A stretch of 64,000 nucleotides of DNA, taken from positions 6,076,001 through 6,140,000 of the forward strand of contig NZ_CP011125.1 of NCBI RefSeq assembly GCF_000737325.1. The letters are read 5' to 3'. The stretch comes from Sandaracinus amylolyticus (GTDB taxonomy: Bacteria > Myxococcota_A > Polyangia > Polyangiales > Sandaracinaceae). The notes below the pieces were generated by a model, which saw only the letters and a program-made list of their open reading frames with translations, was not told where the DNA came from and did no database searches. The position numbers and the translations under genes were made by a program. Numbering within the stretch: position 1 is the first letter of the stretch; each line of letters begins with the position of its first letter. This document shows positions 46,355 through 52,951 of this stretch, piece after piece.

Positions 46355-46939
46355 TCAGTGCGCCTTTTCGCGGTCCAGGCCCGGGTGCGTCGGGTCGCCG
46401 GGCTCGTGGCGCGGGTTCGCGGTGACGTACGTCCCGTCCTTGCCCGGGATGCTCATCAGCGTCTCTTTGTCGAAGATGAAGTGCTCGCGCTTCCACGACG
46501 CCGGCACGTGCGTGCCGGTGTCCATGCGGATCGCGTCGCACGGGCACGCCTCGACGCAGAACCCGCAGAAGATGCAGCGCAGCTCGTCGATCACGAACAC
46601 GCGCGGGTAGCGCTCGTAGCCGTGGCGCGGATCGTCCGCCTCGTACTCGGCGGGCTCGATGTAGATGCACTGCGCCGGGCACGCCGTGCTGCAGCACAGG
46701 CACGCGACGCAGCGCGGCGAGCCGTCCGCGCGGTGGGTGAGCCGGTGCACGCCGCGGAAGCGCTCCGGGTAGTCGCGGCTCTCCTCGGGGTAGCGGATCG
46801 TCGCGGTCTTCCGGTTCTCGGCGGGGCCGATCGTGTTCTGGAAGAAGCGCTTGAAGGTGACGCCGAGGCCCTTCACCGCCTCGACGACGTAGCTCTGGTC
46901 CGCGACGGTGCGTCCGGGCTTCTTGATCGCGTAGGCCAT
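46355..46939 (-). CDS. nuoI: NADH-quinone oxidoreductase subunit I
   Basis: A 194-residue ferredoxin-like subunit of complex I carrying clusters N6a and N6b, relaying electrons to NuoB. Both [4Fe-4S] motifs are complete: CVACLCCSTACP (residues ~77-88) and CIFCGFCVEACP (~121-132). Typical blocks are RFRGVHRL and RYPRVFVIDELRC. The C-terminal ~45 residues extend past the second cluster. It is the last gene of the nuo operon, 4 bp after nuoH. Confidence 0.96.
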   Translation of the reverse strand: MAYAIKKPGRTVADQSYVVEAVKGLGVTFKRFFQNTIGPAENRKTATIRYPEESRDYPERFRGVHRLTHRADGSPRCVACLCCSTACPAQCIYIEPAEYEADDPRHGYERYPRVFVIDELRCIFCGFCVEACPCDAIRMDTGTHVPASWKREHFIFDKETLMSIPGKDGTYVTANPRHEPGDPTHPGLDREKAH

Positions 46940-46943
46940 CGAA

Positions 46944-48356
46944 TCACCAACCCATCTGCTGGAACAGCAGCACGAAGATGCCGGTCACGAGGATGTTCAG
47001 CAGCGAGAGCGGCAGGATGAGCTTCCAGCAGAGGCTCATGATCTGGTCGTAGCGGAAGCGCGGCAGCGTCCAGCGCACCTGGATGCTGATCAGCGCGAGC
47101 ACCATGACCTTCGTCAGGAACGCGACGACCTGCAGGATGATGATGAACAGGTGCGAGTTCGCGACGTTGCTGACGACCGCGAAGTCCGTCCCGCTCAGAT
47201 CGAAGCGGTAGCCGAACGCCTCCCAGCCCGCGCGGGTCAGGAACGGCACGTCCCAGCCGCCGAGGAAGACGACCGCGATGATCGCCGAGCTCACCGCGAC
47301 CTCGATGAACTCGCCCATCATGTACATCAGCCACTTGCCCGACGAGTACTCGAGGAAGTAGCCGGCGACGATCTCGCTCTCACCTTCGGGCGCGTCGAAC
47401 GGAACGCGCTTGTACTCCGCGATCGTCGCGGTGAAGAAGAGGACGAACGCGAGCGGGTTCACCAGCACGCCCCACACGTGCTCGCTCTGCCAGCGGATCA
47501 TGTCCGGCAGCATCAGCGAGTCGTAGAGCATGAACATCGGGACCAGCGAGAGGCCGAGCGTGACCTCGTAGCTGACCATCTGGCTCGCAGCGCGGAGGCC
47601 GCCGAGCAGCGCGTACTTGTTGTCGCTCGCGTAGCCCGCGATCGCCGCGCCGATGATGCCGGTGCCCGCGATCGCGAAGATGTAGAGGATGCCGATGTTG
47701 AGGTTCGCGACCTGGATGTCGATCGCGGTCCCGCCGATCGCGCCCTCCGCGGGCAGCTGATCGAGCAGGTAGTCGACGTAGATCGTCGGACCGAACGGGA
47801 TCACCGCCGCGGTCGCGAACGCCGGGACCATCGCGATGATCGGCGCGATCGAGTGGAGGAACTTGTCGCCGCGGGGCGGGACGATGTCCTCCTTGGTGAA
47901 CGCCTTGATCGCGTCGAAGAGCGCGTGCAGGCCGCCGAAGATCGTCAGGCGCCCATCGAAGAAGAGGAACGGGAGGATCTTCGCCGCGACGAGGTGGATG
48001 ACCGCGAGCGGGAAGAAGACGAGCATCAGCCCGCCCCACGTGTGCTCGATGCCGAACACCGGCTCGGTGAAGAGCACGTCCTGACCGTTGCCGGTCGCGA
48101 CCATCGCCAGGCTGATCGCGAACATCACGCCGCAGAGCGCCGCGACGACGTACGCGCCGAGCACCAGGTACGGGATCGCGTCGAGCAGCGCGCGCGGCAT
48201 CGGGAAGCCGCCCATGTACGGGCCGAGGCGATCCTGGAAGAACGCGCTCTGACGACGCTCCGCGAGCACCAGCACCGGCGCGAACAGCAGCAGCAGCACG
48301 CCGATGACGAACGCGATCTTCAGGATCGAAACGAGAACGAGCCAGCCGAGATCCAT
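46944..48356 (-). CDS. nuoH: NADH-quinone oxidoreductase subunit H, with a large internal insertion
   Basis: A 470-residue membrane subunit of complex I, which builds most of the quinone-binding cavity. Typical members are about 325-350 residues. The usual start (LAERRQSAFFQDRLGP, ~residues 31-46) and the following conserved GLHALFDAIKAFTKEDI (~142-158) are normally joined by only a few residues. Here about 90-95 residues intervene, with two or three hydrophobic segments (LVLGAYVVAALCGVMFAI and LMLVFFPLAVIHLVAAK). Later landmarks are intact: SDNKYALLGGLRAASQMVSYE, FDAPEGESEIVAGYFLEYSSGK and the last helices. It is 10 bp downstream of nuoG. Confidence 0.93.
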   Translation of the reverse strand: MDLGWLVLVSILKIAFVIGVLLLLFAPVLVLAERRQSAFFQDRLGPYMGGFPMPRALLDAIPYLVLGAYVVAALCGVMFAISLAMVATGNGQDVLFTEPVFGIEHTWGGLMLVFFPLAVIHLVAAKILPFLFFDGRLTIFGGLHALFDAIKAFTKEDIVPPRGDKFLHSIAPIIAMVPAFATAAVIPFGPTIYVDYLLDQLPAEGAIGGTAIDIQVANLNIGILYIFAIAGTGIIGAAIAGYASDNKYALLGGLRAASQMVSYEVTLGLSLVPMFMLYDSLMLPDMIRWQSEHVWGVLVNPLAFVLFFTATIAEYKRVPFDAPEGESEIVAGYFLEYSSGKWLMYMMGEFIEVAVSSAIIAVVFLGGWDVPFLTRAGWEAFGYRFDLSGTDFAVVSNVANSHLFIIILQVVAFLTKVMVLALISIQVRWTLPRFRYDQIMSLCWKLILPLSLLNILVTGIFVLLFQQMGW

Positions 48357-48366
48357 CGTCGTCCCC

Positions 48367-49962
48367 TCAGCTCGCAGCCGCCACGGCGGCCGTCGTCGCG
48401 GGCATCGCCGCGCGCACCTCGGGAAGCTTCGCGAACGCGATCTCGCGTCCCACGCGCTTGCCGATCTCGATCAGCGTCTCCCAGGCGCTCTTGATCCCGA
48501 GCGGCGCGTTCACCGCGCGCTGGAACTGCTGCGCCATGCCCTTCGCGTTCACGAAGGTTCCGCTCGCCTCGGCCGTCGTCGCGACCGGGACCACGACCGT
48601 CGCGACCTGCGTGAGCGGGCCGATGTTCGACGAGAGGTTCACGTGCGGGACGTTCGCGAGGCTCGCGAGCTGCTCGACGCTCTCGCCCGCCGCCCAGCCG
48701 AGCGAGAGGATCGCGTCGACCCTGCCCGCCGCGACGTCGGCCGCGAGATCCGCGGTGCTGCGCAGCTCGCCGCCGGCGACCGCCGTCGCGCCCGCGCGGT
48801 TCGGGTTCGGGTCGGGGTGCCGCAGGATCGCGTCGCCCTTCCACCCGCCGGGCACGCTCTCGGGCGAGAGCGCCGCGAGGTAGAGCGCGGTGCCGCCGAG
48901 GTGCTCGCGCCCGAGCTTGCCCAGCACGAAGTTGTCCTCGTTGGTGTGCTGCGCGCTGAACACCACCGCGAGGCGCTGCGACTTCTCGAGCACCTTCGCC
49001 GAGGCCTCGATCGCGACGTCGCGCGGCACCTCGACGACGCGGCCTTCCTGACGAACGCGCCCGGTGAGGATGCGATCCTCGTGGAAGCGCTTGTACGTCA
49101 TCATGCCCGCGTCGCACATCCAGAACTTGTTCACCTGCTCGTTGTCGCGCGGGCGCAGGCGATACACGCGCTGGTAACGAGGATCGTAGTCGACCCACGT
49201 GTTGCAGCCGGTCGCGCAGCCGTTGCAGACGCCGGGCGCGCTTCGCAGGAACCAGACGCGCGCCTTGAAGCGGAAGTCCTTGCTCGTCAGCGCGCCGACC
49301 GGACAGACGTGCTCGGTCATCAGCGTGTACGCGTGATCGAGCTCGCGGCCCGGCGAGACGGTGATCTCGTTCTTGTTGCCGCGCTCGCGCATGTCGAGCA
49401 CGTGGTCGCCCACGACCTCGTCGCAGAAGCGGATGCAGCGCGTGCACATGATGCAGCGCTCGGCGTCGTAGACGATCGTCGGACCGAAGCGCACCGCCTT
49501 CGGCTTGTGCACCGGCTCGGTGTCCTTGCGCTTCAGCTTCTTCTGGTGCGCGAGCCAGTAGTCCTGGAGCTTGCACTCACCGGCCTGATCGCAGATCGGG
49601 CAGTCGACCGGGTGATTGAGCAGGAGGAACTCCTGCACTGCGCCCTGCGCCTTCTCGACCGCCGCGCCCTTGCTCGCGACCTCCATGCCCTCCGTCACCT
49701 CGATCTGACAGGCGGGCTGGAGCTTGTTCTTCGTCGTCTCGACGTAGTCCTTCTTCTTCTCGTCCCACGCGAGGATCGGCAGCGCCATCGGGCGCGCGCT
49801 CTTGATCTCGACGAGGCACATGCGGCAGTTGGCCGCGATCGAGAGACCGGGGTGCCAGCAGTAGTGCGGGATCTCGACTCCCTTCTTCCACGCCGCCCGG
49901 ATGATCGTGTCTCCGGGCTCGAAGGGAATCTCCTGGCCATCGAGCTTGAACGTCGGCATCAC
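48367..49962 (-). CDS. nuoG: NADH-quinone oxidoreductase subunit G, short form
   Basis: A 531-residue iron-sulphur subunit of the complex I peripheral arm, much shorter than E. coli NuoG (about 900). The [2Fe-2S] domain has CWHPG...NCRMC...ACQIE. The His-ligated [4Fe-4S] motif is HPVDCPICDQAGEC (~104-117), followed by CIMCTRCIRFCDE with CPVGAL. An additional CNGCATGCNTW with a later Cys (WMCDAGM) matches the off-path N7 cluster found in only some bacteria. The molybdopterin-oxidoreductase-like domain is truncated. It follows nuoD directly, without nuoE or nuoF between. Confidence 0.93.
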   Translation of the reverse strand: MMPTFKLDGQEIPFEPGDTIIRAAWKKGVEIPHYCWHPGLSIAANCRMCLVEIKSARPMALPILAWDEKKKDYVETTKNKLQPACQIEVTEGMEVASKGAAVEKAQGAVQEFLLLNHPVDCPICDQAGECKLQDYWLAHQKKLKRKDTEPVHKPKAVRFGPTIVYDAERCIMCTRCIRFCDEVVGDHVLDMRERGNKNEITVSPGRELDHAYTLMTEHVCPVGALTSKDFRFKARVWFLRSAPGVCNGCATGCNTWVDYDPRYQRVYRLRPRDNEQVNKFWMCDAGMMTYKRFHEDRILTGRVRQEGRVVEVPRDVAIEASAKVLEKSQRLAVVFSAQHTNEDNFVLGKLGREHLGGTALYLAALSPESVPGGWKGDAILRHPDPNPNRAGATAVAGGELRSTADLAADVAAGRVDAILSLGWAAGESVEQLASLANVPHVNLSSNIGPLTQVATVVVPVATTAEASGTFVNAKGMAQQFQRAVNAPLGIKSAWETLIEIGKRVGREIAFAKLPEVRAAMPATTAAVAAAS

Positions 49963-50006: not shown

Positions 50007-51224
50007 TCAGCGGTCGCACTCGCCGCCGATCATGTTGATCGAGCCGAAGGTGGGCACGATGTCCGCCACCATGTCGCCGATCAGCATCTCGCGGCACGCC
50101 TGCAGGTTGTAGAAGCACGGCGGGCGGCAGCGCACGCGATAGGGCGTGCCCGAGCCGTCGCTCACGATGAAGAAGCCGAGCTCGCCGTTGCCGCCCTCGG
50201 TGAACGAGTAGCACTCACCGGCGGGCACCTTGATGCCCTCCATCACGATCTTGAAGTGCGCGATGGTCGCCTCGATCGTGTTGTACACGTCGAGCTTCTC
50301 GGGCAGCACGAAGCGCGGGTCGTCGGCGTTGATCGGACCCTTGTCCGGCATCTTGTCGAGACACTGCTCGATGATCTTCATCGACTGACGCACTTCCTCG
50401 AAGCGCACCATGAATCGATCGTAGTTGTCGCCGTCGTGGCCGACCGGAACGTCGAAGTCGACGGCGTCGTAGAACATGTACGGGTGCGCCTTGCGCACGT
50501 CGTAGTCGACGCCGGTCGAGCGCAGCACCGGGCCGGTCACGCCCCACGCGAGCGCGCGCTCCTTGCTCAGCTTCCCGATGCCCTGGGTGCGGTCGAGGAA
50601 GATGCGGTTCTTGAGCAGCAGCGACTCGGTCTCGAGGAGCACCTCGTCGACCTGCGGCAGCACCGCACGGACGCTCTCCTTGAAGTGCGGCGTGGGCTCC
50701 TTCGCCATGCCGCCGATGCGGCCGAAGGAGTGGGTCATGCGCGCGCCGGTCTCCTGCTCGAGCACGTCCCACAGCCAGTCGCGCACCTTGATGCACCACA
50801 GGAAGGGCGTGAACGCTCCGAGCTCCATCGCCGTCGCGCTGTTGCACGTGAGGTGATCGGTGATGCGCGAGATCTCGCCGAGGATCATCCGGTACCAGGT
50901 GCAGCGCTCCGGCACCTTGAGCCCGGCGAGCTTCTCCACCGCGAGCGAGAAGCCCACGTTGCAGAGCATCGGCGAGACGTAGTTGAGGCGATCCGCGTAG
51001 GGGAAGACCTGCGTCCAGTTGCCACGCTCGCAGCTCTTCTCGAAGCCGCGGTGCAGGTAGCCCGGCTGGATGTCGAGATCCATCACCGTCTCGCCGTCGA
51101 GCTCGAGCACCATGCGGATGGTGCCGTGCATCGCGGGGTGCGACGGGCCCATGTTGATCCGCATGGGCTCGGCGGGCAGCTCGAGCGTGCCCTCGTGCTC
51201 CTCGTCTTCGTAGAAGGGCTCCAT
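50007..51224 (-). CDS. nuoD: NADH-quinone oxidoreductase subunit D
   Basis: A 405-residue 49-kDa-type subunit that forms the quinone headgroup site together with NuoB. Signature blocks are GPSHPAMHGTIRMVLELDGE (~residues 27-46), GYLHRGFEKSCE, SHAM-equivalent ELGAFTPFLWCIKVRDWL and GECYSFTEGGNGELGFFIVSDGS near the C-terminus. NuoC is encoded separately, not fused as in E. coli. It lies 21 bp downstream of nuoC and 44 bp upstream of nuoG. Confidence 0.96.
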   Translation of the reverse strand: MEPFYEDEEHEGTLELPAEPMRINMGPSHPAMHGTIRMVLELDGETVMDLDIQPGYLHRGFEKSCERGNWTQVFPYADRLNYVSPMLCNVGFSLAVEKLAGLKVPERCTWYRMILGEISRITDHLTCNSATAMELGAFTPFLWCIKVRDWLWDVLEQETGARMTHSFGRIGGMAKEPTPHFKESVRAVLPQVDEVLLETESLLLKNRIFLDRTQGIGKLSKERALAWGVTGPVLRSTGVDYDVRKAHPYMFYDAVDFDVPVGHDGDNYDRFMVRFEEVRQSMKIIEQCLDKMPDKGPINADDPRFVLPEKLDVYNTIEATIAHFKIVMEGIKVPAGECYSFTEGGNGELGFFIVSDGSGTPYRVRCRPPCFYNLQACREMLIGDMVADIVPTFGSINMIGGECDR

Positions 51225-51245: not shown

Positions 51246-51929
51246 TTACTCGGTCGCGGTACGAGCCGCTTCGTCGTCGAGCTCGGTGTACTCGATGCCC
51301 TTGCTGAGCGCGGGGCGCTGGCCCTGCTGCTCGCCGATGGCGGGCGAGACCTGGAAGTCGCTGCCCTCGATGCGCGCCTGCCAGTCGATGCGCGACCACG
51401 GCTGGCCCTCGTCGGGGCCGAAGGGCGGCAGCTTGTCGATGTCCTCCACGTCGCGGTAGGGCACCAGCGGCTGCGTCTTCTCGATCGGGTAGTCCTTGCG
51501 GAGCGGGTGCCCGACGAACTCGTCGTACATCAGGATGCGGCGCGGATCGGGGTGGCCCTCGAAGACCACGCCGAACATGTCCCACGCCTCGCGCTCGCCC
51601 CAGTTCGCGCCGATCCACACCGGCACGAGCGACGCGACGCTGCCGCCCTCGTCGACGCGCGTCTTGATGCGCACGCGGTGCTTCTTCGCGAGCGAGCGCA
51701 CGAAGAGCAGCACGTCGAAGCGCGGGAGGTCCTCACGCATCGGGTAGTCGACGCACGTGACGTCGACGAAGTGGTTCATGTCGCACTCGGGGTCGTCGCG
51801 CAGGAAGCGCGCGACCTCGAGCCAGTCCTTCGGCGCGACCACGGCCTCGTCGTCGCCGAAGTGGCTGCTCGTCGCGAGGATGCGGTCACCGAACTGCGCC
51901 GTGAGGCGCTCGAGCACCTTCTTGCTCAT
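51246..51929 (-). CDS. nuoC: NADH-quinone oxidoreductase subunit C
   Basis: A 227-residue 30-kDa-type subunit of the peripheral arm. The diagnostic block is ANWGEREAWDMFGVVFEGHPDPRRILMYDEFVGHPLRKDYPIEKT, split here as NWGEREAWDMFGV (~residues 131-143) and HPLRKDYP (~165-172). The C-terminal ~50 residues are a charged extension. It lies 6 bp after nuoB. Confidence 0.95.
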   Translation of the reverse strand: MSKKVLERLTAQFGDRILATSSHFGDDEAVVAPKDWLEVARFLRDDPECDMNHFVDVTCVDYPMREDLPRFDVLLFVRSLAKKHRVRIKTRVDEGGSVASLVPVWIGANWGEREAWDMFGVVFEGHPDPRRILMYDEFVGHPLRKDYPIEKTQPLVPYRDVEDIDKLPPFGPDEGQPWSRIDWQARIEGSDFQVSPAIGEQQGQRPALSKGIEYTELDDEAARTATE

Positions 51930-51935
51930 GGCGAC

Positions 51936-52591
<656 letters not shown>

Positions 52592-52604
<13 letters not shown>

Positions 52605-52951
52605 TCGAGCGCTCCCTTCTTCCACGCGTAGACGAGGGTCACGCCGAGGACGAGGAGGAAGAGCAGCATCTCCACGAGCCCGAACCAGCCGAGCTCGCGG
52701 AACTGAGCCGCCCACGGATACAGGAACACCGCCTCGATGTCGAAGACGACGAAGAGGATGGCGGTGAGATAGAACTTGACGCTCAGGCGTACGTGCTGAG
52801 CGCCGGTGGTCGCCGAGCCCGACTCGTACGGGATCAGCTTCTCGGGCGTGGGGTTCTTCCTGCCGAGCGTCGATGCCAGGATGAACAGCAACGACGGGAT
52901 CGCGACTGCGATCGCGAGCATCAGGAAGACGGGAAAATAGACCTCGAACAT
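52592..52951 (-). CDS. nuoA: NADH-quinone oxidoreductase subunit A
   Basis: A 119-residue membrane subunit with three predicted helices (VFLMLAIAVAIPSLLFIL, FYLTAILFVVFDIEAVFLYPW and GLVEMLLFLLVLGVTLVYAW). The conserved loop YESGSATTGAQHVRLSVKFY and the FDIEAVFLYPW helix are diagnostic. It is the first gene of the nuoABCDGHI unit, with a leader of about 135 nt from a sigma70-like promoter. Confidence 0.96.

Follow-up and report, generated by a model that had tools for sequence, protein, structure and literature searches.

A predicted membrane hairpin inserted before the quinone-entrance helix of NuoH in Sandaracinus amylolyticus, and unrelated inserts at the same site in Polyangiales

Introduction

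Few membrane subunits of complex I are as highly conserved as ND1/NuoH, and the entry and exit of quinone through its tunnel are debated. The entrance gate of the quinone channel has been described as one amphipathic and two transmembrane (TM) helices of Nqo8 plus one helix of Nqo7 (PMC11677225). In cyanobacterial and chloroplast NDH-1, a separate subunit, NdhL, predicted to cross the membrane with two helices, caps lipids where plastoquinone enters on the NuoH homologue NdhA (PMC7021789; also PMC6992706), and its deletion nearly abolishes activity (PMC7021789). Moreover, core subunits of the Escherichia coli enzyme carry extensions (a 94-aa G-loop in NuoG and tails of NuoB, NuoI, and NuoF) that fill space held by extra subunits elsewhere (PMC8357420).

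Here we describe NuoH of S. amylolyticus, encoded within a 64,000-nucleotide stretch of contig NZ_CP011125.1 (hereafter, the window). With NuoH/Nqo8/ND1 proteins (PF00146) it shares the whole core, the conserved acidic and arginine residues, the amphipathic helix AH1, and the operon neighbors, whereas the linker between TM helix 1 (TM1) and AH1, 6-15 aa in those proteins, has 94 aa and two predicted extra TM helices. The insert resembles NdhL in having two predicted membrane helices, which may likewise lie at the quinone entrance; however, NdhL has its own gene, while the insert is part of the nuoH reading frame, and no sequence relation to NdhL was found, with no NdhL match among the Pfam matches of five inserts up to an E-value of 5. 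Like the E. coli extensions it is lineage-specific and belongs to a core subunit, but those are soluble and lie in the peripheral arm, whereas the Sandaracinus insert is a predicted membrane hairpin in the quinone-entrance subunit. A search of open-access papers, in which an earlier mention could be missed, returned no account of such a NuoH insertion.

Genomic context and identity of NuoH

The insert-bearing nuoH belongs to a nuoABCDGHI operon, where it is flanked by nuoI and nuoG, with nuoD, nuoC, nuoB, and nuoA upstream:

46944..48356, minus strand: nuoH, 470 aa, insertion-bearing complex I subunit H (translation; Pfam NADHdh)
46355..46939, minus strand: nuoI (Pfam Fer4 families; operon comparison)
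48367..49962, minus strand: nuoG, 531 aa (Pfam)
50007..51224, minus strand: nuoD (Pfam)
51246..51929, minus strand: nuoC (Pfam)
51936..52715, minus strand: nuoB, listed start GTG, real start probably further downstream (Pfam)
52592..52951, minus strand: nuoA (Pfam)

NuoH scored 315.5 bits against Pfam NADHdh (PF00146), for which the curated cut-off is 27, and the conserved motifs ERR...RxGP and, in AH1, ...DAIK...KED were present. Alignment with relatives further revealed that the E/R/D residues of the quinone chamber region are kept, denoting a retained catalytic core. Judged from its sequence, the protein is a NuoH/ND1 variant with predicted quinone reductase activity, the long linker marking the variant and giving no ground for exclusion. 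A search of the single 10,327,335-base contig detected one NuoH and one NuoF, and NuoE, F, J, K, L, M, and N are encoded in a second nuo cluster near 3.76 Mb. Since NuoH and NuoF are single and the remaining subunits lie in that cluster, the split complex I would be the one complete, working enzyme of this organism.

NuoG of the window (48367-49962, minus strand) is short, at 531 aa, and its molybdopterin-type region is much reduced; relatives are similar in length. NuoL of the second cluster (L196:6755-9616, plus strand) has 953 aa, including a tail of ~190 residues after the last membrane helix; this tail contains the PKD-like stretch WDFDSDGDWDTDWSTESTATHSY and had no match in Pfam.

Position and size of the insert

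The organization of the N-terminal region of NuoH is as follows:

48264..48344, minus strand: TM1, about residues 5-31, followed by ERRQSAFFQDRLGP (alignment with relatives)
47937..48218, minus strand: expanded TM1-AH1 linker, residues 47-140, 94 aa (6, 11, or 15 aa in insert-free forms)
47886..47936, minus strand: AH1, GGLHALFDAIKAFTKED, residues 141-157, helix at the quinone entrance (alignment to Nqo8 of 4HE8; role from PMC11677225)

The insertion that an earlier note on this DNA had placed in the conserved loop after the first helix is real, and the loop is that between TM1 and AH1. The residue counts given there (RLGP at ~46 and GGLHALFDAIKAFTKED at ~142) agree with ours, RLGP occupying residues 43-46 at the end of ERRQSAFFQDRLGP and the amphipathic helix GGLHALFDAIK starting at 141, with GLHALF at 142. 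The proposed size of ~90-95 residues fits the 94-aa linker and slightly exceeds the net insertion, which is 88, 83, or 79 aa when compared with linkers of 6 aa (E. coli/Thermus-type NuoH), 11 aa (most Myxococcota), or 15 aa (short-form Polyangiales), respectively. Pfam NADHdh matched the protein in two stretches around the insert, and phmmer alignments to NuoH/ND1 chains of the PDB were broken at the same site.

The 15-aa linker of short forms reads like NRAxIKLFGKxIRLAG, which suggests a tight beta-hairpin. Both of its edges (RAxIxL ... K/RITLxG) are retained in long forms, as RAxIxLP ... GRLTIF or GKITLF, so the extra sequence would sit at the turn of this hairpin. Assembly error, frameshift, a missed start, and chance were ruled out: the closest congener is identical at all 94 linker residues, with a core 97% identical, TM1 is conserved upstream, and inserts occupy this site in independent genomes too. 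A known domain within the insert was also rejected, since none of five inserts scanned gave a Pfam match reaching its curated cut-off; the lowest E-value (7.6e-4) belonged to DUF6611, at 20 bits versus 27.

Predicted topology and the quinone entrance

Within the linker, the following elements were predicted:

48096..48194, minus strand: predicted inserted helix A, residues 55-87, hydropathy peak 70-88 (Kyte-Doolittle; single-sequence AF2 fragment, pLDDT mostly 66-77)
48039..48095, minus strand: connecting loop, residues 88-106, no Lys/Arg, predicted periplasmic (sequence; charge count)
47958..48038, minus strand: predicted inserted helix B, residues 107-133, hydropathy peak 110-128 (Kyte-Doolittle; AF2 fragment)

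Two hydrophobic stretches of the window insert rise above the Kyte-Doolittle cut-off; two or three had been proposed, and no third was found. AF2 modeling of residues 36-160 alone returned a helical hairpin (55-87 and 107-133) at a mean pLDDT of 63, mostly 50-77, while whole NuoH modeled from two sequences reached a pLDDT of 38.5 and was not used for any reading; viral contigs, searched for relatives that could deepen the model, contributed two distant matches only. Averaged hydropathy gave two helices in insert groups A-G and four in group H (Polyangiaceae). Moreover, cytoplasmic K+R exceeded periplasmic K+R in all eight insert groups, marginally in group G. The window insert is thus predicted to be a two-helix membrane hairpin. 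Wherever helices could be cleanly counted their number is even, as a return of AH1 to the same membrane side requires; linkers of 192 and 282 aa show five peaks by a simple hydropathy cut-off, and an even number there is an assumption.

The insert is attached directly before the amphipathic helix of the published entrance gate (PMC11677225), so new helices at this point would lie close to the entrance, as the earlier note had suggested. In an otherwise canonical NuoH, a two-helix hairpin would have been inserted at the tip of the short cytoplasmic beta-hairpin between TM1 and AH1, the chain entering the membrane, making a short periplasmic turn, and coming back out, so that its return to the same side would keep AH1 in position. 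The hairpin most likely lies against the outer heel of complex I, next to the quinone entrance. The position of the insert cannot be assumed, since TMH1 and part of the TM1-AH1 loop of E. coli NuoH are invisible in density (PMC8357420). By analogy with NdhL on NdhA in photosynthetic NDH-1, we tentatively favor, as a plausible reading, that the hairpin acts as a built-in accessory subunit that may stabilize or lipid-shield the entrance. The exact site, the even helix number, the charge bias, the constraint seen in one genus, and a working complex I speak for this; against it stand the pLDDT of 38.5 for whole NuoH and the faster evolution of the insert, as in a loosely constrained decoration. 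Since many close relatives have no insert, it is not essential to complex I as such.

The accessory helices might otherwise serve as a docking element for a quinol-oxidizing complex (supercomplex) or for a lineage-specific membrane protein. Such a role, compatible with a lineage-specific, variable insert in a probably lipid-facing position and with a linker of up to 282 aa in one genome, seems improbable to us: where operons were mapped, no partner gene in or beside them differed between short and long forms, and each unrelated sequence would need its own interface. Less credible still is an altered choice of quinone, which the earlier note had raised and which has the probable position near the entrance as the one point in its favor. 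Inserts are mutually unrelated in sequence, and among close relatives NuoH with an insert alternates with NuoH that has none, so we consider this effect highly improbable. Cultured myxobacteria use menaquinone.

Distribution and length classes in Polyangiales

The searches took in 282 genomes from the phylum and 183 from the order; 61 entries were followed up, loci were retrieved, and linker length was measured in about 165 NuoH loci. Among these Myxococcota, the insert was found in Polyangiales only. Complete NuoH matches outside the order, in the phylum sample, started at profile positions 2-14 and ran unbroken through the site, a few truncated or contig-edge matches being uninformative (e.g., G112, G277, and G002), and class-level relatives had linkers of 6, 11, or 15 residues. 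The insertion is therefore absent from the NuoH matches examined outside the order and does not represent a normal feature of many NuoH families; nor is it common to all relatives, another possibility contemplated in the earlier note, as 39 short-form Polyangiales loci have a 15-aa linker.

Within the order, linkers fell into classes of 15, 72, 83-106, 146-160, 192, and 282 aa, with two helices predicted at 72-106 aa and four at 146-160 aa, and the short-form linker was exactly 15 aa in all short-form loci (39/39). Operon layout was alike in short and long forms. No spare gene adjoined nuoH in the operons where gaps were mapped, and the candidate origin of the insert by fusion with a small neighboring membrane gene was rejected, such a gene being absent from the mapped short-form operons.

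Probable repeated gain of unrelated inserts

In a maximum likelihood tree of 81 NuoH cores, with the insert removed, at least nine changes between presence and absence of the insert were needed, and thirteen changes for five length classes. A single clade of insert-bearing NuoH was rejected by the AU test, which alone cannot tell gains from losses. Trimmed inserts were scored against shuffles that keep local hydropathy (Z). Within groups, insert pairs had a median Z of 8-19 at core identities of 0.50-0.65, whereas between groups, at the same core identities, the median was near 0 and the maximum 4.3. This sorts the inserts into about eight sequence groups that show no detectable relation to one another, the NuoH cores being 50-70% identical across groups; these groups were partly drawn from the same Z scores, and A, B, C, and H also match branches or families. 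The window insert itself had a Z of 9-28 against its own subclade and of about 0 against other members of its family at 63% core identity. Profile comparisons of trimmed inserts, in which the profiles were thin, detected no relation between groups.

A single ancestral insert diverging fast was rejected, as between-group similarity was about zero where within-group similarity was clear at equal core identity. Since the groups are unrelated although their cores are 50-70% identical, the inserts were likely gained independently, several times; moreover, with all short forms exactly 15 aa long, repeated insertion of unrelated sequence explains the pattern better than one gain followed by many losses. 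Recombination is a possible contributor to this pattern.

It can be proposed, with considerable doubt, that the TM1-AH1 turn of NuoH in Polyangiales is a domain-insertion hot spot: on at least eight occasions, unrelated membrane hairpins of two, four, or more helices would have been taken up there, with selection at the quinone entrance acting on access of lipid or quinone or on escape from the respiration inhibitors of myxobacteria. If true, accessory subunits would have been built convergently, in modular fashion, within a core subunit of the respiratory chain; in an enzyme that ranks among the most conserved of respiration, unrelated hairpins recurring at the quinone doorway are unexpected. 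A defensive function would also be in line with independent gains recurring at the entrance. Myxobacteria make complex I inhibitors, among them aurachins and the Polyangium product phenoxan (PMC8401837); hairpins would keep such hydrophobic compounds out, and the entrance would diversify under chemical warfare. However, insert-free relatives occur within the same order, and we regard this function as rather remote.

Selection on the insert

Insert sequences evolve faster than core sequences, and Polyangiaceae show this most clearly. In high-GC pairs the insert changes at about one and a half to four times the rate of the core; dS is compressed in these pairs, which makes omega unreliable, including the values near 1 obtained for the insert in some close pairs, where dS is poorly estimated. 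In the best-resolved genus, with moderate dS, dN/dS was 0.04-0.13 for the insert versus 0.04-0.09 for the core; the insert is conserved in this genus.

These rates bear on the main rival of the built-in accessory hairpin, namely that the turn accepts membrane hairpins harmlessly, as tolerated decoration kept by stable folding and with no specific role in quinone access. This is possible, although we consider it unlikely. The nine or more changes of presence and absence on the core tree, the unrelated sequences in about eight groups, the faster rates, and the omega values near 1 in those high-GC pairs with poorly estimated dS speak for it, whereas the low omega of the insert (0.04-0.13) where dS is usable, its 100% identity between the window and the closest congener, and the restriction of its recurrence to one order rather than a scatter through the phylum sample argue against it.

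Near-identical enzymes with and without predicted extra entrance helices constitute natural experiments, in which access of quinone, binding of inhibitors, dependence on lipids, and stability can be compared. Furthermore, NuoH accommodates as many as about 270 extra residues at a single defined site, which makes this site useful for placing tags or for finding the entrance in structures.

Additional observations

Two loci of the window's own family, L066 and L067 (G419 and G415), have NuoH linkers of 192 and 282 aa; the inserts of both are related to that of L044 (97 aa) and look enlarged step by step. L179 (G327) carries a 72-aa insert with two predicted helices; its neighbors in the tree, L122 and L133, have four-helix inserts to which it shows no detectable sequence relation. 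A different NuoH insertion, splitting the Pfam profile near position 250-270, occurs in families f33 and f34 of other Myxococcota (G063, G108, G132, G141, G174, G184, G213, G228, and G274).
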